Source: Cyclobacteriaceae bacterium
GTDB taxonomy: Bacteria; Bacteroidota; Bacteroidia; Cytophagales; Cyclobacteriaceae
DNA: 44,168 bases
Assembly (NCBI GenBank): GCA_016787605.1
Contig: JAEUUE010000062.1
Span: 1-44,168 of the forward strand
Direction of reading: 5' to 3'
The translations under genes were made by a program, and so were the position numbers. Numbering within the stretch: the first letter of the stretch is position 1; every line of letters starts with the position of its first letter. Of the stretch, positions 31,509-38,289 are shown one piece after another. The notes beneath the pieces are model-generated. The model saw only the letters and a program-made list of their open reading frames with translations, was not told where the DNA came from and searched no databases.

Positions 31509-32699
31509 TCATGGCTCAAAGAAGCACACCGATCCGCCTACCCACGTCTTGTCTTTGTTGTACTTCACCCCGATCATTTCGCCGCGGCTGAGGCGGGCCA
31601 GGTTGGTGACGAGTCGGGGCCGGGCTGCATTAGGCTCCCACAAATAGAGCAATCGAATTTCCACTTTCACCAGTCCATCCGGGGCCTGCACTACGGGCAG
31701 GTACTGCACCTTGCGTTGAAGCATGAAATTAGATCGCTCGTAATCGGGGATCCGCTCGATGTCATCCGGTGTCACATGAAATACTACCCCGCTGCCGGAA
31801 AAAGAGAATAAGGGTTTGAGTACATAGTTCTCGAGATCCGGAGGGAACTGCCGGAACTCAGACAGGAACCGGCACTCCGGGATGTACCGGCTCTTGATCA
31901 TCGGCATGGTGTATTTGCTGATGCGGAAAAACCAGTTGGGGTGGCCGGCCCACTCCACGTCTACGTCTTCCGTCAGGTTGAAATCCAGCTTGAGGTCGGT
32001 GCGCTTCACCAGTTCGTCGAAGATGACGCGGTTATAGATTCGCTTGATTTCAATCGACTGACCGTCCCTGGGGTAGTACAACTTGTTGCCCTTTCGGGTG
32101 ACATCGCCGATGTGTACGGCAGTAATGCCCGTCATCACTTCCGTCGCCAGGAAATCTACGGCCGTGTTTTGCTTCATCGGTTCGATCTCCAGGAGGATCA
32201 CTTCGCGGGGATCGTGCTCGTTGAGAAGGACCCGCTTAAGCAGGTCGCGATACTCCGTTGACGAAAGACCAAAGTGGCTTTGCATGGCAGCTGGGACCGC
32301 AAAATGTTCGCGGTATTTCGCCGAAAGCACATCCTGCCAGCCGAAAAGCGAGGGGAAACCCTGCATCTCGATCAGTCGCGGCTCAGGCATCCCGTCGATG
32401 TCGACGACGCCAAAGTCCAGGGCGAGGAAAAGTGACCGCTCGGTCTCGCGGGGTACGCGCAGTTTGGGAGGGATGGCCTTCTCAGTCAGCGCCTTGAAAT
32501 CGGGCCGAACCAGGAAATCAATTATGTCATCGCCTGCCTGGCGCAACCGGGTCTCAAAGTCCTTCCCTACAAAGACCGGGGTCTCGGCAACGCGAAACGT
32601 TATTTCACGCCCGTACAGGCTGTTGAGGTCCCGGAGAAAGTTCTGATATTTCGGCTCCGAAAATGCCTGGTTATACGCCTTTCGAATCGAGGGAATCAT
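31509..32699 (-). CDS. ATP-grasp-like protein of uncertain subfamily (last gene of amidoligase cluster)
   Basis: 396 residues, no signal or membrane segment. The C-terminal half has 'ENYVLKPLFSFSGSGVVF', which looks like an ATP-grasp glycine-rich loop after a Lys-Pro strand, then 'VEIRLLYLW' and 'LARLSRGEMIGVKYN', where the metal/ATP residues would lie. The middle has 'EIKRIYNRVIFDEL', reminiscent of glutathionylspermidine-synthase/circularly permuted ATP-grasp proteins. The N-terminal 160 residues are not recognised. If the fold is right, it would form an amide bond with ATP. Its ATG overlaps the amidotransferase stop by 4 bases, so the two proteins are made together and may form a complex. 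Confidence 0.6.
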   Translation of the reverse strand: MIPSIRKAYNQAFSEPKYQNFLRDLNSLYGREITFRVAETPVFVGKDFETRLRQAGDDIIDFLVRPDFKALTEKAIPPKLRVPRETERSLFLALDFGVVDIDGMPEPRLIEMQGFPSLFGWQDVLSAKYREHFAVPAAMQSHFGLSSTEYRDLLKRVLLNEHDPREVILLEIEPMKQNTAVDFLATEVMTGITAVHIGDVTRKGNKLYYPRDGQSIEIKRIYNRVIFDELVKRTDLKLDFNLTEDVDVEWAGHPNWFFRISKYTMPMIKSRYIPECRFLSEFRQFPPDLENYVLKPLFSFSGSGVVFHVTPDDIERIPDYERSNFMLQRKVQYLPVVQAPDGLVKVEIRLLYLWEPNAARPRLVTNLARLSRGEMIGVKYNKDKTWVGGSVCFFEP

Positions 32700-33535
32700 G
32701 AGGCCACCTCCGTAAGTTTATGTCGAAGCGCCTGCATGAGGAATCTCGGTAAAACCGTGTTGTGGGTGAGCATGATTTTGTCGGGATCCGTGAGGTGCTC
32801 CAGCATGTCCCAGTACTTCTTTTCTCCAAATTTATCGATCACCAGCTTCTTCTTGTCGTCGCGCAACAAGTACATGCGCATGCCGCTGGCATCGGCTTCG
32901 GGATGAAACTGCGTTCCGAAAAAGGCGTCGTCAAACCGGATGGCCATAACCGCCCGCTCGAGTTTTACGTGAGGCCGGTGCTTCTCAATGCATAGGACTG
33001 ATCCCCCGCCGGCTTCGATTTTGTCCAGGTCGGGTTGCGTCAATTGGTAGTCGCGCGAATCAACCACCCAGAACGGATCATCGAGAGACCGCAACAGGGG
33101 GTCATGCTGGCCGGCGTCCGTCTTATGGCAGGGCATGACGCCGAATGAGGTGCTCTTGCGCTTGGACACGTGGCCCAGCCCGTAATAACGGCAGAAGACC
33201 TGGAAGGAGTGACAGATCAGGAACACGTGCTTGGGCTTGTCCGGTTTGGCCCGGTTGTGGCGCTTGATGGACTCCATCAGGGCAAAATAGCGCTGCTCCC
33301 AAAGCGACCCGGCGCTGTCCAGCGGGCTGCCCGGCCCACCGGTGGAGATGTACGCATCGTAATCCGTTCCCGGCACCTCGGCGCTTCCCCGTACATCAAA
33401 GACGTCGTACGCGATGCTTTTATGGATGTCGACCGCGAAGGCTTCAATGATTTCACGGATTCCCCGCATGCCTTCGTTGGCCGTGCCCTCGTACATGTCG
33501 AGGATGGCAATGCGGATGGTTTTGGAGGAACTCAA
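32696..33535 (-). CDS. Class I glutamine amidotransferase-like protein
   Basis: 279 residues from a TTG start; the first ATG lies inside the first beta strand (ILDMYEG), and the promoter TATCTTTG sits 16 bases upstream of the TTG. The GATase core carries 'ISTGGPGSP' (oxyanion strand), nucleophile C108 in FLICHSFQVF and H211/E213 in GTQFHPEAD, so the catalytic triad is complete. The nucleophile elbow ICHSFQ differs from the usual GICxGxQ. The last ~60 residues extend beyond the core. It could feed ammonia to the partner ligase or hydrolyse gamma-glutamyl bonds; the genomic pairing favours the former, by inference only. Confidence 0.8.
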   Translation of the reverse strand: MSSSKTIRIAILDMYEGTANEGMRGIREIIEAFAVDIHKSIAYDVFDVRGSAEVPGTDYDAYISTGGPGSPLDSAGSLWEQRYFALMESIKRHNRAKPDKPKHVFLICHSFQVFCRYYGLGHVSKRKSTSFGVMPCHKTDAGQHDPLLRSLDDPFWVVDSRDYQLTQPDLDKIEAGGGSVLCIEKHRPHVKLERAVMAIRFDDAFFGTQFHPEADASGMRMYLLRDDKKKLVIDKFGEKKYWDMLEHLTDPDKIMLTHNTVLPRFLMQALRHKLTEVAS

Positions 33536-33551
33536 CGGGTTGGTTTCTTAC

Positions 33552-33559
33552 CAAAGATA
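33552..33559 (-). promoter_or_regulatory. -7 promoter element (TATCTTTG) internal to the amidoligase cluster
   Basis: Top strand CAAAGATA reads TATCTTTG on the minus strand, an exact match lying in the 34-base gap after the carboxylate-amine ligase stop. It would let the amidotransferase/ATP-grasp-like pair be expressed apart from the upstream genes. Confidence 0.5.
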
Positions 33560-33569
33560 CGAAGGCGCA

Positions 33570-34667
33570 TCAGCACCCTTTCAACGTTTCCTCCACAATG
33601 TAGTCGACCACGGCGGAAAGGCTGCGGGTCTGTTCAAATACGGCCAATTGCCGGTCGGCGCCGGTGCCTTCCGACAGAATATTTTCCACCGTCTTTAACG
33701 CCTGGCGGCTGCCCAGTTCATCCACCACATCGTCCACAAATTCCAGCAACTCGTGGATCAACACGCGGGTGTCTACCTCCACCTGCTTGCCAAAATCGAT
33801 AAGCTTTCCGTCGATACCGTAGCGCGAGGCTCTCCACTTGTTTTCATTGATGAGCGCCCGGTGATACATGATGAAGCTCATGTTCTTCTGCCGCAGCTTG
33901 TACAGCTTCGCTACCACGGCCTGAAACAGGGCGGCGATGGCAATCGACTCGTCGACTCGCATCGGCACGTCGCAGATCCTGAATTCGATGGTATCGAAGA
34001 ACGGATGGACGCGGACATCCCACCAGATCTTCTTCGCATTATCGATACAGCCCGTCTTGATGAGCAGGTTGACGTAGTTCTTGTAGTCATCCCAATCGAC
34101 GAACTCGTCCGGGATTCCCGTCCGGGGGAATTTGTCGAAGACTTTCGTGCGAAATGATTTAAACCCGGTATTGCGGGCTTCCCAAAAAGGTGAATTGCAC
34201 GACAGCGCGTAGATATGGGGAAGGAAATAGCGCGCCGTGTTCATGATGTGGATGGCGGTATTCTTGTCCGAAATCCCCACGTGCACATGCAGTCCGAAGA
34301 TCAGATTGGAGCGTGCTGCTTCCTGCATTTCGTTCACAATGGCATCATAGCGCGGGTTGGGTGTAATGAGTTGCTGCGACCAGTGTGAAAAGGGGTGCGT
34401 GCCGGAGGCGCCGATCCGGAAGCCCAGGCTGGAGGCAATCTCGGCAACTCCGCGCCGGAGGCGGACCATGTCGGCCCGGGCTTCATCCGCATTGCGGCAG
34501 ATGCCGGAGCCCACTTCCACTACGGCCTGGTGCATCTCTGCTTTCACCTGGTCGTTGAGCACTTTGGAGGCCACCTCGACGATCTTCTGGTCATGCGACG
34601 CAAGCTCCCGGGTCATCGGGCTCACGACCATGTACTCCTCCTCTACCCCAAGGGTAAACTTTTCCAT
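33570..34667 (-). CDS. GCS2-family carboxylate-amine ligase (YbdK-like)
   Basis: 365 residues from ATG 34667 (MEKFTLGVEEEY); an upstream extension of the open frame overlaps the ATP-grasp gene and is discarded. Family motifs are GVEEEY (7-12), EMHQAVVEVGSG (44-55), ASGTHPFSHW (87-96), GLHVHVGI (125-132) and TIEFRICD (226-233). These enzymes share the glutamine-synthetase-like fold and join an amino acid's carboxylate to an amine using ATP; E. coli YbdK has weak glutamate-cysteine ligase activity. The natural substrate here is unknown. The gene starts 5 bases after the ATP-grasp stop, so they are one transcript. Confidence 0.9.
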   Translation of the reverse strand: MEKFTLGVEEEYMVVSPMTRELASHDQKIVEVASKVLNDQVKAEMHQAVVEVGSGICRNADEARADMVRLRRGVAEIASSLGFRIGASGTHPFSHWSQQLITPNPRYDAIVNEMQEAARSNLIFGLHVHVGISDKNTAIHIMNTARYFLPHIYALSCNSPFWEARNTGFKSFRTKVFDKFPRTGIPDEFVDWDDYKNYVNLLIKTGCIDNAKKIWWDVRVHPFFDTIEFRICDVPMRVDESIAIAALFQAVVAKLYKLRQKNMSFIMYHRALINENKWRASRYGIDGKLIDFGKQVEVDTRVLIHELLEFVDDVVDELGSRQALKTVENILSEGTGADRQLAVFEQTRSLSAVVDYIVEETLKGC

Positions 34668-34672
34668 GACGC

Positions 34673-35683
34673 TTATTTCTTTTTCGCCGGTGCTTTGGCC
34701 GCCTTGGTTGCGGGTGCCGCTTGGGTGGCTGAGGAAAGGAATCGCGACACCCCGTCGGAGACGTAAGTGCCCCAGGTCAGGTTGTCTTTGCCCGGCTGAT
34801 GCATCCGGGCGCGCTCTACTGCCATCTTGGCTGCATGCTCCACCACCCACTCAAAGTTTTCCTGCCCTACGGAAGTTACCTCCGCATCCGGAGCAGGGTT
34901 GCAGAAATCGATGGCGTAGGGAATGCCGTCGCGAACAGCCATTTCCACGGTATTGAAGTCATAGCCGAGCGCCTCGTTCAGGAGGAGCACGTAGTCATGC
35001 ACCTTCTTCAACATCTTTTCAGAGGCAGGGCCTTTGTTCACTGCGTAACGAAGATGATGGGGATTGCGCGGTTCGTATTGCATGATCCGGACGTACTTGC
35101 GTCCGAGGCAATAGCAGCGGAAATAATCTTCAAAGACTATTTCTTCCTGCAGCATCATCACCAGTTGAGCCGTCTGCCGGTACGCTTCAAAGAATTCATC
35201 CGGTCCGCGGAGCTTGTACACGCTTTTCCAGCCGCCGCCGGCATGGGGTTTCATATAGGCCGGCCAGCCGATGTAGGCAAATACCTGCTCCCAGCTTAAC
35301 GGGAACTTCAGGTTACTGAACGAGGCATCCGACGTGTCGGTGGGTCTTTCGTGGGAAGGAAGGATGACCGTCTTGGGCACGGGCACACCGAGTTTTACGG
35401 CCAGCGCGTTGTTAAAGAACTTCTCGTCGGCGCTCCACCAGAAGGGATTATTGATGACCGCCGTGCCGGTGCTGGCTGCATTCTTGAGATAGGCGCGGTA
35501 AAAGGGAACGTCCTGGGAAATGCGGTCGATGATCACATCATAACCACAGGGTGCGCCCTGCTCCACCACATCCACTTTTACAGGTTCGGCGCTGATGTCT
35601 TTCAGCCCCATTTTGTTGATCCGCTCCACGAAGGCCTCCGGGAACGAGCGCTCCATACCGTGCAATACGCCGATTTTCTTCAT
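34673..35683 (-). CDS. ATP-grasp ligase with Lys/Ala-rich C-terminal tail
   Basis: 336 residues. ATP-grasp features are 'WPAYMKPHAGGGWKSVYKL' (ATP-binding Lys and glycine loop, about 140-158), 'LQEEIVFEDYFRCYCLG', and the metal triad E247 (FNTVEMAVRDG), D259 and N262 (AIDFCNPAPD). The N-terminal 80 residues form a preATP-grasp domain like D-Ala-D-Ala ligase or RimK. Residues 318-336 are a basic tail (TKAAKAPAKKK), unlike the rest and similar to histone H1 tails. It probably ligates an amino acid or acyl acceptor. It is 36 bases downstream of the alpha/beta hydrolase gene and 5 bases upstream of the carboxylate-amine ligase gene. Confidence 0.85.
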   Translation of the reverse strand: MKKIGVLHGMERSFPEAFVERINKMGLKDISAEPVKVDVVEQGAPCGYDVIIDRISQDVPFYRAYLKNAASTGTAVINNPFWWSADEKFFNNALAVKLGVPVPKTVILPSHERPTDTSDASFSNLKFPLSWEQVFAYIGWPAYMKPHAGGGWKSVYKLRGPDEFFEAYRQTAQLVMMLQEEIVFEDYFRCYCLGRKYVRIMQYEPRNPHHLRYAVNKGPASEKMLKKVHDYVLLLNEALGYDFNTVEMAVRDGIPYAIDFCNPAPDAEVTSVGQENFEWVVEHAAKMAVERARMHQPGKDNLTWGTYVSDGVSRFLSSATQAAPATKAAKAPAKKK

Positions 35684-35719
35684 GACTTTCTGGGTTAGGT
35701 TCTGTCGATCTTCCAGGCC

Positions 35720-36661
35720 TCAATTTGGCAACAGCCCAATGAGGGTATCCTGGAATTTGATCGGTTCTGTAAGGTTAAGACTATGGCCCGAATTTGTAAA
35801 CCAAATCAATTCCTTTTTTTGAGCCATCACCGATCGATAGTAGGCTTCCGTAATCGTTGACGAAGCCTGCCGGTCTTCGCGCCCCACGAAAAAATAGACC
35901 GGGCAGTGCAATTTGGGCAACGTTTCAAACAGGTTGATGCCGCACGCTTCACGGTACAAGGCAAACCACTTTTCGCTCCACTTCAGGACGTATGCCCTTG
36001 AGACGGGATCCTTCCCGGCAAAGATCGCGAGCCATTTGCGGTGAAGATAGAGCTCGTCCGGGGCTTGAAAAGGAACCTTCACCTGCGACAGCTCCCGGAT
36101 TGCCTCTTCCTTGTTCCCCTGAGTTGCTTTCTCCTGCAGCCAGGCTAACGTCTGGCGCTCGCTTTCCCATTGCTGGATCATCGGGGCAACAGCCACGCAC
36201 GCCGAAAGCCATTCCGGGTGCAGGTCTGCGACACGCAACGCCAGGAAGCCACCCCAGGAATGCCCCACGATGAAGATCTTGTCGCGGCCAAAACGCTTTC
36301 GTAGGTAATCGACCATCTCCGATGCATCCGACTCCATGACAGAAACGGACACCGGAACAGGAGACGAATTCAGGCGAGCCGTTTTCCCGCTCTCGCGCTG
36401 ATCCCACTGAACCACCACAAAATGCCGCTGGAGTTTCCGGGTAAATTTTTCGGCGTAGCCCATCACGGAATTACCAGGTCCTCCATGAAGGAAGAGAAGG
36501 ACGGGAAGCGTGTCCTGGGCGCCCCGGATTTGAATCCATTGCTTGATGTTCCCGATGGTAACCGCCTCGGCAACATCAATGGGTTTTGCCTGCAGCGGCG
36601 CCGAGACCGAGAGCCATACGGTCAAAAGAAGAGGAATGTATGGGCGACCGCCACCGGTCAT
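35720..36661 (-). CDS. Exported alpha/beta hydrolase, proline iminopeptidase-like
   Basis: 313 residues with a hydrophobic signal peptide (about 8-25, LQAK). The alpha/beta hydrolase core has the oxyanion HGGPG (59-63), 'VVQWDQRESGK' (proline iminopeptidase/S33 signature), nucleophile S135 in VGHSWGG, an acid in 'GREDRQ' and the catalytic His in NSGHSLN. S33 members remove N-terminal proline or hydrolyse small amides and esters. The signal sends it to the periplasm, unlike the neighbouring cytosolic ligases, so it may process product or substrate outside. Its ATG directly follows the esterase stop (TAAATG). Confidence 0.87.
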   Translation of the reverse strand: MTGGGRPYIPLLLTVWLSVSAPLQAKPIDVAEAVTIGNIKQWIQIRGAQDTLPVLLFLHGGPGNSVMGYAEKFTRKLQRHFVVVQWDQRESGKTARLNSSPVPVSVSVMESDASEMVDYLRKRFGRDKIFIVGHSWGGFLALRVADLHPEWLSACVAVAPMIQQWESERQTLAWLQEKATQGNKEEAIRELSQVKVPFQAPDELYLHRKWLAIFAGKDPVSRAYVLKWSEKWFALYREACGINLFETLPKLHCPVYFFVGREDRQASSTITEAYYRSVMAQKKELIWFTNSGHSLNLTEPIKFQDTLIGLLPN

Positions 36662-37369
36662 TTACCTGATCAGGGAAAGGTAGTGCGGGAACATCTGCCG
36701 CCATGCCGGCCAGTCGTGCGGCGCATCCTGGCGAACATCAAGCCAATGGGGTATGCCTTTGTGGCGGAGTATGGCCGCCATCTTCTCATTGGCATCCCAG
36801 CACATGTCATGCGTGCCTGTGCCCAGCACCACAAACATGTCGGCGAAGAAGGGATTCTGCGCGTGGGGGATAAAATCGGGAGGGTTATTGAAGTAAACGT
36901 TGTCGTCGTAGTACCCGTCGAGCTGGCCCTTGATGTCGAACGCAGCGCCCATGTTGAACACATACTTGACGACCTCCGGGTGCCGGAAGGCAAAGTTGGT
37001 GGCGTGATAGCCACCAAAACTGCAGCCCGCCGTTGCGATCCGGTTCACCCCGGTCTCGCGCTGCATCAGCGGTACCAGCTCCGTGAGCAAGTACTGGTCG
37101 TACCAGATATGGTTCATCACCCGCTGGGCCGGATGGATGCTGCGATTATACCAGCTCAGTGAATCGATTCCATCGGGACAGTAGATCTTGACCAGCCCCT
37201 CATCCACAAACCAAGCGACACTGTCAAGCAGTTTGAAATCCTTGTTCTCGTAGAATCGCCCCATGGACGTAGGAAACAACATCACCGGGTATCCCCGGGT
37301 GCCGAACGCCAGAACTTCCATTTCGCGGTTGAAGCTGGTGGAGTACCAGCGGTGATAGTGTTCGTACAT
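36662..37369 (-). CDS. Esterase-like alpha/beta hydrolase (COG4947-type)
   Basis: 235 residues, no signal peptide. The nucleophile S117 is in TAGCSFGGYH, the acid is possibly D188 (GTGTHDMCW), and the histidine H218 is in APHDWPAWRQMFP. It resembles a small esterase family often described only as 'esterase'. It begins MYEHYHRWYSTSFNREMEV, a terse start typical of that family. It is the first gene of the minus-strand cluster and divergent from another esterase across 68 bases. The presence of two esterases at the head of an amide-ligase cluster suggests a substrate-release or thio/oxyester step, by inference. Confidence 0.78.
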   Translation of the reverse strand: MYEHYHRWYSTSFNREMEVLAFGTRGYPVMLFPTSMGRFYENKDFKLLDSVAWFVDEGLVKIYCPDGIDSLSWYNRSIHPAQRVMNHIWYDQYLLTELVPLMQRETGVNRIATAGCSFGGYHATNFAFRHPEVVKYVFNMGAAFDIKGQLDGYYDDNVYFNNPPDFIPHAQNPFFADMFVVLGTGTHDMCWDANEKMAAILRHKGIPHWLDVRQDAPHDWPAWRQMFPHYLSLIR

Positions 37370-37418
37370 GAAAGCGGGTATAGGTGGCTCCGCTGAGGTA
37401 AGTTAGGTTGCGATCGTC

Positions 37419-37426
37419 TATTTTTG
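37419..37426 (+). promoter_or_regulatory. -7 promoter element (TATTTTTG) of the divergent esterase gene
   Basis: Exact TAnnTTTG match ending 11 bases before the ATG at 37438. The same 68-base gap must also hold the promoter of the minus-strand cluster, perhaps TAACTTAC on the minus strand (top-strand about 37400-37407), a weaker match. Confidence 0.5.
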
Positions 37427-37437
37427 CAAGCACGCTC

Positions 37438-38289
37438 ATGGAACAATCCCCGCTGGCACAGCCAATCACCGATCCGCAGGTCCCTGCCTATGCGTACCAG
37501 GCAGAAAAGCTCTCCGGGATCTACACGAAGATCCTCCAGCGCCATGTGGAAGTGGAAATTTTTACCCCGCCCGACCTGGACAGAAGCAAAACCTATCCCC
37601 TCCTGGTGCTGAATGACGGGCAGGATAGTGAGAAGGTGAGGGTCAAATCAACAGTGGAGAAACTTGTCAGCGAAGATGCCATTCCGGCCATTATTGTGGC
37701 CGGAATCACAGCCGGCGATCGCATGCAGGAGTATGGGGTGGCTTACAGGCATGACTACCACGGGCGCGGAAAACACGCCAAAGCCTATAGTGAGTACCTC
37801 ATCAAGGAACTGATACCCTACCTCGATTACCGGTACCCCACCGCCACGACGGCCAGCCAACGGGCCATTGCGGGTTACTCCCTGGGTGGATTGTCAGCCA
37901 TGGACATTGCCTGGAATCACCCCAACCAGTTCGGCAAAGTGGGCGTATTCAGCGGATCCTTCTGGTGGCGAAAACGGGACTCCGGAAGTTTTTTCTACTC
38001 CGACTATCGGGACCGGCTCATGCATCTGCAGGTTCGTCGCGGTCGCCTGAAACCGGGAATGAAATTCTGGTTCCAGACCGGCACCCTCGACGAGGACAGT
38101 GACCGAAACAAGAATGGCGTGATCGATTCCATCGACGATACACTCGACCTGATCACCGAACTTACCCGGAAAGGCTACCGCCCCTTCCATGACATCCAAT
38201 ACCTTGAAATCAAAGACGGACGCCACGACCAGGAAACCTGGGCAGAGGCCATGCCTCACTTTCTGAAATGGGCGTTCGGAAACGGCTGA
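37438..38289 (+). CDS. Esterase family protein (enterochelin esterase/Fes-like fold)
   Basis: 283 residues from ATG 37438. Alpha/beta hydrolase with nucleophile S148 in IAGYSLGGLSAM, 'LLVLNDGQD' (acidic strand common to this family) and a His near 'DGRHDQETW'. It also contains an EF-hand-like loop, DSDRNKNGVIDSIDD, where D, N, N and D could bind calcium. The family (esterase/feruloyl-esterase/enterochelin-esterase) covers diverse hydrolases. No signal peptide is seen, so it is cytosolic. It lies at the head of a divergent unit with a HAD hydrolase gene 2 bases downstream, and faces the amidoligase cluster, suggesting shared regulation. Confidence 0.83.
   Translation: MEQSPLAQPITDPQVPAYAYQAEKLSGIYTKILQRHVEVEIFTPPDLDRSKTYPLLVLNDGQDSEKVRVKSTVEKLVSEDAIPAIIVAGITAGDRMQEYGVAYRHDYHGRGKHAKAYSEYLIKELIPYLDYRYPTATTASQRAIAGYSLGGLSAMDIAWNHPNQFGKVGVFSGSFWWRKRDSGSFFYSDYRDRLMHLQVRRGRLKPGMKFWFQTGTLDEDSDRNKNGVIDSIDDTLDLITELTRKGYRPFHDIQYLEIKDGRHDQETWAEAMPHFLKWAFGNG

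Follow-up and report, generated by a model that had tools for sequence, protein, structure and literature searches.

A compact cluster of predicted amide-bond-forming ligases and hydrolases lies within the window, the whole 44,168-nucleotide stretch of Cyclobacteriaceae DNA that was analysed. We put at roughly 60% the probability that this cluster directs a cytosolic, non-ribosomal route to a small peptide or peptide-amine, probably of gamma-glutamyl type, accompanied by hydrolytic trimming and not by a supply of ammonia. Operons mixing ATP-grasp proteins, GCS2-like ligases and peptidases were reportedly described by Iyer and colleagues in Mol BioSyst in 2009. The enzyme families are known, and we found no description of this particular combination in a literature search that covered mostly titles and the beginnings of abstracts. 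Nor is the gene set described in the covered portions of PMC12568646, PMC4431377, PMC6282198, PMC7947786, PMC2922099 and PMC8939145. The absence of an assigned product, remarked on in a preliminary description of this DNA, holds for the literature searched.

All seven open reading frames, six on the minus strand and one on the plus strand, were recovered at their reported positions between 31509 and 38289 (Table 1). Their tight packing is also as previously described, with a 4-bp overlap of AG1 and GAT, a 5-bp gap between AG2 and GCS2, and a stop that abuts a start at the ABH1/EST2 junction (36661/36662). The listed GTG start of GCS2 at 34850 is a mechanical open-reading-frame call; in an alignment of 21 sequences the homologues begin near MEKFTLGVEEEYM, and the start was placed at 34667. 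A Bacteroidetes-type promoter pattern gave 0 matches within the window. Regarding the family assignments made earlier, those of GCS2, the glutamine amidotransferase and the three hydrolases stand above profile cut-offs, whereas neither ATP-grasp protein exceeds a Pfam cut-off and both are instead backed by predicted fold.

Table 1. Genes of the cluster, with positions in the window, strand and basis of assignment
Gene	Assignment	Positions	Strand	Basis
AG1	ATP-grasp ligase by predicted fold	31509..32699	-	AlphaFold2 + Foldseek
GAT	class I glutamine amidotransferase-like	32696..33535	-	Pfam PF00117 over cut-off
GCS2	YbdK/PRK13515-type carboxylate-amine ligase	33570..34667	-	NCBIfam NF010039; start by homology
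AG2	RimK/LysX/D-Ala-D-Ala-ligase-like ATP-grasp ligase	34673..35683	-	AlphaFold2 + Foldseek
ABH1	alpha/beta hydrolase, 313 aa	35720..36661	-	PF00561 E 1.5e-21
EST2	esterase-like alpha/beta hydrolase	36662..37369	-	PF00756 over cut-off
EST3	esterase-like hydrolase, divergently transcribed	37408..38289	+	PF00756 E 1e-32

AG1 matches no Pfam family over cut-off (a sub-threshold match is unrelated) and no NCBIfam model. We modelled it with AlphaFold2 (pLDDT 93) and compared the model with the PDB using Foldseek. At E<=0.001 all 20 matching chains (13 entries) come from the glutathione synthetase and GspS/TryS group or from its relatives, Cp1B for example, with a best E of 4e-13 and moderate TM-scores by query of 0.42-0.61. 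Yeast glutathione synthetase, E. coli GspS and a putative GspS are among the nearest solved folds. AG1 is accordingly predicted to be an ATP-grasp protein with the eukaryotic glutathione synthetase/glutathionylspermidine synthase fold and is a candidate peptide-amine ligase. It shares this predicted fold and the motif order D...E-x-[N/Q] plus YV-KP with the GspS-type ATP-grasps (glutathione, glutathionylspermidine and trypanothione synthetases, YgiC and YjfC), but it has no amidase domain and no family-level sequence match to them. E. coli YgiC gives a weak profile match (E 0.021), and comparison with a Gss/YgiC/YjfC profile is also weak (probability 38% over 54 columns). Residues D95 and E111 are invariant in our alignment. 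A by-eye alignment places Gln113 where Gss/YgiC/YjfC have the Asn of E-x-N and shows no Arg two residues before D95, where these proteins have R-x-D. We counted these two motif departures, the moderate TM-scores and the weak comparison with the Gss/YgiC/YjfC profile against the pathway reading. The AG1 family is large, with at least 591 places, and no Pfam or NCBIfam entry recognises it; the present analysis supplies a fold prediction for it and a type of reaction that can be tested.

The second ATP-grasp protein, AG2, similarly has no Pfam match over cut-off and matches the RimK-type model TIGR00768 weakly (E 9e-7, 28.5 bits), below its cut-off of 143.4 bits. Its AlphaFold2 model (pLDDT 82.8) best matches PsnB, ArgX and Ddl (E 1e-13 to 1e-12, TM-score by query 0.5-0.6), and we assign it by predicted fold as a putative ligase of the RimK/LysX/Ddl type. 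AG2 thus shares a predicted fold with LysX/ArgX, RimK and the D-Ala-D-Ala ligases, although it differs from them in its sub-threshold TIGR00768 score and in that no carrier gene was seen in the neighbourhoods examined. For GCS2 the family match has an E of 3e-63; the protein reaches 539.6 bits against the NF010039 (PRK13515) equivalog cut-off of 371, and it matches PDB 1tt4 and 1r8g (YbdK) at E 3e-49 and 4e-47. In contrast to the YbdK/PRK13515 ligases that it resembles, the cluster enzyme is embedded among multiple ligases.

We then counted partner genes within 10 kb of 80 database copies of AG1, a sample made up of its closest relatives with several per genus. GAT was present near 77 of the 80, GCS2 near 68, AG2 near 59 and EST2 near 54, and the order EST2-AG2-GCS2-GAT-AG1 was found at 52 loci. 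This five-gene order is kept in Flavobacterium, Chitinophaga, Hymenobacter, Dyadobacter and other genera, while the outer flanking genes MazG, orf441 and PGM occur at 0/80. The earlier proposal that the amidoligase genes act as a unit is supported, with conservation reaching beyond Cytophagales, and the suggested check for loss of the neighbourhood outside close strains revealed conservation across several genera. GAT and AG1 alone remain at seven loci and AG1 alone at two, some of which are short contigs. Distance correlations of the five genes over 54 loci (0.77-0.93) were calculated without an outside control gene and mean no more than shared descent.

Among 296 Bacteroidota genomes AG1 occurs in 92 and AG2 in 107, and the two occur together in 88 compared with 33 expected by a statistic that ignores phylogeny. 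In 42 picked AG1-positive genomes GCS2 was found in 40, and AG1 and AG2 lay on separate contigs in 28 and >20 kb apart in 3, with 10 of these 31 cases possibly reflecting contig breaks. Based on this excess co-occurrence of AG1 and AG2, which are often unlinked, and on the presence of GCS2 in nearly all picked genomes, we conclude that the core consists of the three ligases. The three-ligase set has been gained or lost largely together, even inside one genus.

The fold of AG1 is also what would be expected of a cryptic glutathione- or glutathionylspermidine-type route, in which GCS2 would form gamma-glutamyl-cysteine or a relative and AG1, as a divergent glutathione synthetase or GspS, would finish a thiol peptide or its polyamine conjugate. 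Consistent with such a route, GCS2 belongs to glutamate-cysteine ligase family 2, RefSeq annotates YgiC as a peptide--spermidine ligase, and YgiC is named peptidylpolyamine synthetase in the covered part of PMC12568646. The best GshB match in the genome of the window reaches 68.7 bits against a cut-off of 299.05, which we counted in favour of a cryptic route and which rejects canonical glutathione synthesis in this genome. However, this explanation leaves AG2, the commoner of the two ATP-grasps among the 296 genomes, without a role, and AG1 departs from the Gss/YgiC/YjfC motif residues. The survey in PMC6282198, in the part covered, further predicts bacillithiol-type thiols in Bacteroidetes and lists other groups as the gshA-B carriers. 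We consider a glutathione-type route rather unlikely.

GAT scores 32.9 bits against the PF00117 cut-off of 22.8, shows a weak likeness to MetA, and carries a candidate Cys108-His211-Glu213 triad that is invariant in 25/25 aligned sequences. The preliminary description raised the idea of ammonia transfer, by which GAT would supply one ligase with ammonia for a terminal amide. The class I family, the invariant triad and the location near AG1 at 77 of the 80 closest loci (median gap 23 bp) fit this idea. It is weakened, however, because GAT is missing from 31 of 40 picked genomes in which the ligase trio is complete and because an M29 aminopeptidase-like gene takes the GAT slot in four genomes (three genera), a peptidase that would not be expected to donate glutamine ammonia. 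GAT was found in 10 of the 42 picked AG1-positive genomes, most of them divergent, which contrasts with the near-universal GCS2; GAT and AG1 are each found without the other in some genomes. Taken together, ammonia transfer appears improbable. The M29-like replacement, along with an M17 leucyl aminopeptidase and a further ATP-grasp as neighbours at 11 loci (mostly Flavobacterium), points to peptide-bond chemistry. The 31 three-ligase genomes without GAT were also counted against the pathway reading, as were the seven loci with GAT and AG1 only and the two with AG1 only.

AG1 can likewise be replaced. In 6/6 AG1-less loci fetched, another, circularly permuted ATP-grasp lies between AG2 and GAT, and this substitute retains both the Arg of R-x-D and the Asn of E-x-N. 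Because profile-profile comparison gives low probabilities (1.7% with AG1 and 6.6% with Gss/YgiC/YjfC), kinship of AG1 and its substitute is based on their shared pointer to PDB 3n6x. These natural swaps constrain the possible role of each part.

All three alpha/beta hydrolases exceed Pfam cut-offs. EST2 contains GCSFGG and HDW motifs, its candidate residues Ser117 and His218 are invariant in 21/21 sequences, and no signal peptide was seen by eye. EST3 is upstream and divergent at 39/80 AG1 loci, and an EST3-type gene is downstream of AG1 at 11/80. ABH1, whose N terminus looks signal-peptide-like by eye, is present at just 6/80 loci and is thus a local, lineage-specific extra, so that the earlier picture, with all seven genes in one unit and part of the process in the periplasm, is not supported.

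For the proposed peptide or peptide-amine pathway, we infer the order of steps, the substrates, the product and a hydrolytic role of GAT as follows. GCS2 would join the gamma-carboxylate of glutamate to an amine or amino acid, and AG2, working like RimK, LysX or Ddl, would attach a second residue. The growing peptide would then have its carboxylate activated by AG1 and amidated with a further amino acid or a (poly)amine, as in the reactions of glutathione synthetase and glutathionylspermidine synthase. GAT, or the M29-type aminopeptidase in its place, may hydrolyse amides for trimming, editing or recycling, and EST2 and EST3 may process precursors or products that carry ester links or acyl groups. 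The E-64 and dapdiamide pathways, as covered in PMC12568646, likewise build amide bonds stepwise without an NRPS, using stand-alone ligases to form pseudopeptides with amines, and the fungal ligase Cp1B (9cjn) is among the fold matches of AG1. The E-64 route adds an adenylating amide synthetase and an Fe/2-oxoglutarate oxygenase (same source, part covered), whereas Pfam searches detect neither among the seven cluster proteins.

Among the best fold matches of AG2 are PsnB, a graspetide ligase, LysW-bound ArgX and RpsF-bound RimK. These would also suit a RimK-like or graspetide-like system in which ATP-grasps extend a protein or ribosomal peptide by residues that peptidases take off again, but no precursor or carrier gene recurs among open reading frames of 70-100 aa or more and characterised GCS2 and GS/GspS enzymes use small substrates, making such tagging or protein modification quite unlikely. 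A role in anti-phage defence was rejected with PADLOC, whose models matched 0/7 cluster proteins, a result that we counted in favour of the pathway reading.

The presence of the three-ligase pathway in about a third of the Bacteroidota genomes sampled makes it a good candidate for producing an overlooked shared metabolite. We give low odds to a specific form of this idea, that about a third of Bacteroidota (the 92/296 with AG1) share an undescribed gamma-glutamyl peptide-amine doing the work of glutathione or glutathionylspermidine and made by three ligases with exchangeable parts, in which a second GspS-fold ligase would replace AG1 and mostly GCS2 while an M29 peptidase would replace GAT.

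Plasmid-borne spread was rejected, as single-sequence tblastn (E<=1e-3) gave no match to AG1 or AG2 in 72,556 plasmid records. EST2 relatives occur in 14 of these records. Four of the 14 stretches were inspected: one is unannotated, in that of Thiodictyon no ATP-grasp is annotated within 8 kb, and those of Peptoclostridium and Pararhizobium have an ATP-grasp directly upstream. This upstream ATP-grasp belongs to another family and is a distant relative (21-22% identity) of one in flavobacteria.

The amidoligase cluster is a conserved and apparently uncharacterised pathway assembled from known enzyme families. It comprises two ATP-grasp ligases (AG1, AG2), a carboxylate-amine ligase (GCS2), a class I glutamine amidotransferase-like protein (GAT) and three alpha/beta hydrolases (ABH1, EST2, EST3). 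The preliminary description is correct on the seven ORFs and the distances between them, and its GCS2, amidotransferase-like and hydrolase assignments are backed by Pfam and NCBIfam. AG1 is a ligase family that neither database recognises, the only Pfam match being sub-threshold and unrelated. By its listed start, a same-strand HAD-family gene overlaps the last 22 bp of EST3 (38268-38289).

Cluster genes in the window and a second amidoligase locus (L173) in the same genome
Feature	Position	Strand	Support
AG1	31509-32699	-	ORF
GAT	32696-33535	-	PF00117, 32.9 bits (cut-off 22.8)
GCS2	33570-34667	-	NCBIfam NF010039, 539.6 bits (cut-off 371)
AG2	34673-35683	-	weak RimK/LysX-type NCBIfam matches, best E 9e-7, under cut-off
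ABH1	35720-36661	-	hydrolase, Pfam/NCBIfam
EST2	36662-37369	-	hydrolase, Pfam/NCBIfam
EST3	37408-38289	+	hydrolase, Pfam/NCBIfam
237-aa ORF	within L173:6193-9635		C39-peptidase-like look, by eye
482-aa RimK-like ATP-grasp	within L173:6193-9635		by eye
414-aa second GCS2 homologue	within L173:6193-9635		

Of 39 genomes taken as relatives and searched for AG1, the window's own among them, 22 carry it. A scan of named genomes with the AG1 alignment gave at least 591 confirmed relatives, and we took the best 80 loci, all presumably Bacteroidota by their source names, for locus analysis; 65 have the full 10 kb upstream, and several come from the same genus and are therefore not independent. By profile search, GAT is in 77, GCS2 in 68, AG2 in 59, EST2 in 54 and EST3 in 50, with median gaps of 23 to 59 bp between cluster genes. 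The order EST2-AG2-GCS2-GAT-AG1 occurs in 52/80, with a divergent EST3 upstream in 34, an EST3-type gene downstream of AG1 in 11 and neither in 7. GAT-AG1 stands alone in seven loci and AG1 in two; three have AG2 and GAT but no GCS2. When control genes were sought in these 80 loci by tblastn (>80 bits), the outer flanks MazG, orf441 and PGM were found in none, HAD in 8, an amine oxidase in 2 and ABH1 in only 6. ABH1 and the flanks thus lie outside the conserved unit, and the seven-gene set first proposed is not supported.

Among 296 Bacteroidota genomes, each at least 90% complete, AG1 (E<=1e-3) occurs in 92 and AG2 (E<=1e-20) in 107, with both in 88 against 33 expected (Fisher p 1e-50, kinship ignored). 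Four genomes have AG1 without AG2, one of them (G085) by a 24-residue edge match, and 19 the reverse. In one genus (g24), three of eight genomes listed carry AG1 (G179, G191, G254), two of these with AG2, and the other five lack both. We also picked 57 mostly divergent genomes by hand, 42 with AG1 and AG2 and 15 with AG2 only. GCS2 (E<=1e-60) was found in 40/42 and 4/15 respectively, GAT (E<=1e-15) in 10/42 and 11/15. AG1 and AG2 are unlinked in 31 of the 42, on different contigs in 28 (in 10 of which either gene is <6 kb from a contig start, so that a contig break is possible) and >20 kb apart in three. Since co-occurrence persists despite this frequent non-linkage, the three ligases tend to travel together.

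Two positions show part swaps. In all six AG1-less loci fetched (L162-L167, drawn from the 19 AG1-less genomes), a ligase-like protein of ~450 aa is flanked by AG2 and GAT, with EST2 upstream in L163 and L166. A profile built from five of the six found this substitute in no other locus of 144 searched. It passes the CP_ATPgrasp_2 cut-off in two of three copies scanned and keeps R-x-D and E-x-N. Its profile hits PDB 3n6x (E 4e-9), an entry for a putative glutathionylspermidine synthase that the predicted AG1 model also matches (E 2e-12). In the GAT slot, L135, L142 and L143 carry a 339-aa protein between GCS2 and AG1 that matches Peptidase_M29 (E 5e-15 to 9e-18; the L142 copy also AmpS, E 4e-5), and by coordinates G287, from the same genus as L135's genome, has such a gene in that position. 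Of the 57 picked genomes, five have a strong M29-like match (E<=1e-150), and none of these five has GAT; one of them, G244, carries the gene away from AG1. G291, G169 and G073 each give a weaker hit (E 1e-31 to 1e-35), and the last two also have GAT. In 11 loci, mostly Flavobacterium, there is an M17 leucyl aminopeptidase nearby, together with one more ATP-grasp (two loci scanned).

The AG1 model (pLDDT 93) matches 20 chains from 13 entries at E<=0.001 (TM-score by query 0.42-0.61), all eukaryotic-type glutathione synthetases, GspS, trypanothione synthetase, nematode relatives or Cp1B. Compared with the E. coli GspS-type proteins Gss, YgiC and YjfC, AG1 retains D95 and E111, has Gln113 in place of Asn and lacks the Arg of R-x-D; the profile comparison is weak (38%, 54 columns). 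The AG2 model (pLDDT 82.8) matches PsnB, ArgX/LysX, Ddl and RimK among the best 50 of 521 matches at E<=0.001. Its Lys/Ala-rich C-terminal tail (34673-34750) is very variable in length and missing from other alignment members. GAT C108, H211 and E213 are invariant in 25/25 sequences, EST2 S117 and H218 in 21/21. These folds and residues are best explained by stepwise formation of amide bonds, which would yield a small peptide or peptide-amine and would be accompanied by hydrolytic trimming; whatever we say of substrates we infer. PMC12568646 has YgiC and YjfC acting on peptide and spermidine, to which their RefSeq names likewise point. A glutathione-like product would be unexpected, since PMC6282198 attributes bacillithiol-type thiols to Bacteroidetes and lists one actinobacterium, Cyanobacteria, Proteobacteria and Eukarya as carrying gshA-B. 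No GshB over cut-off was found in the window's genome.

EST3 (37408-38289) has a conserved stretch, DE-x-x-DR-x-x-x-G-x-ID-x-I-x-D, with by eye the look of a calcium-binding loop; D228, E229, D232, G237, I239, D240 and D244 are invariant in 18/18 aligned sequences.

The same genome holds a second, tightly spaced amidoligase locus on contig C124 (L173) and, on contig C12 (L174:7371-9259), a RimK-like ATP-grasp adjoining an ORF that by eye is AstE/AspA-like and deacylase-type. Of three annotated plasmids with EST2 relatives, one (L127) has no EST2/ATP-grasp pairing; on those of Peptoclostridium and Pararhizobium (L125:6788-8753, L128:6828-8756) the relative comes immediately after an ATP-grasp_4 ligase from a different family, which suggests that in several phyla hydrolases of the EST2 type are paired with ATP-grasps.
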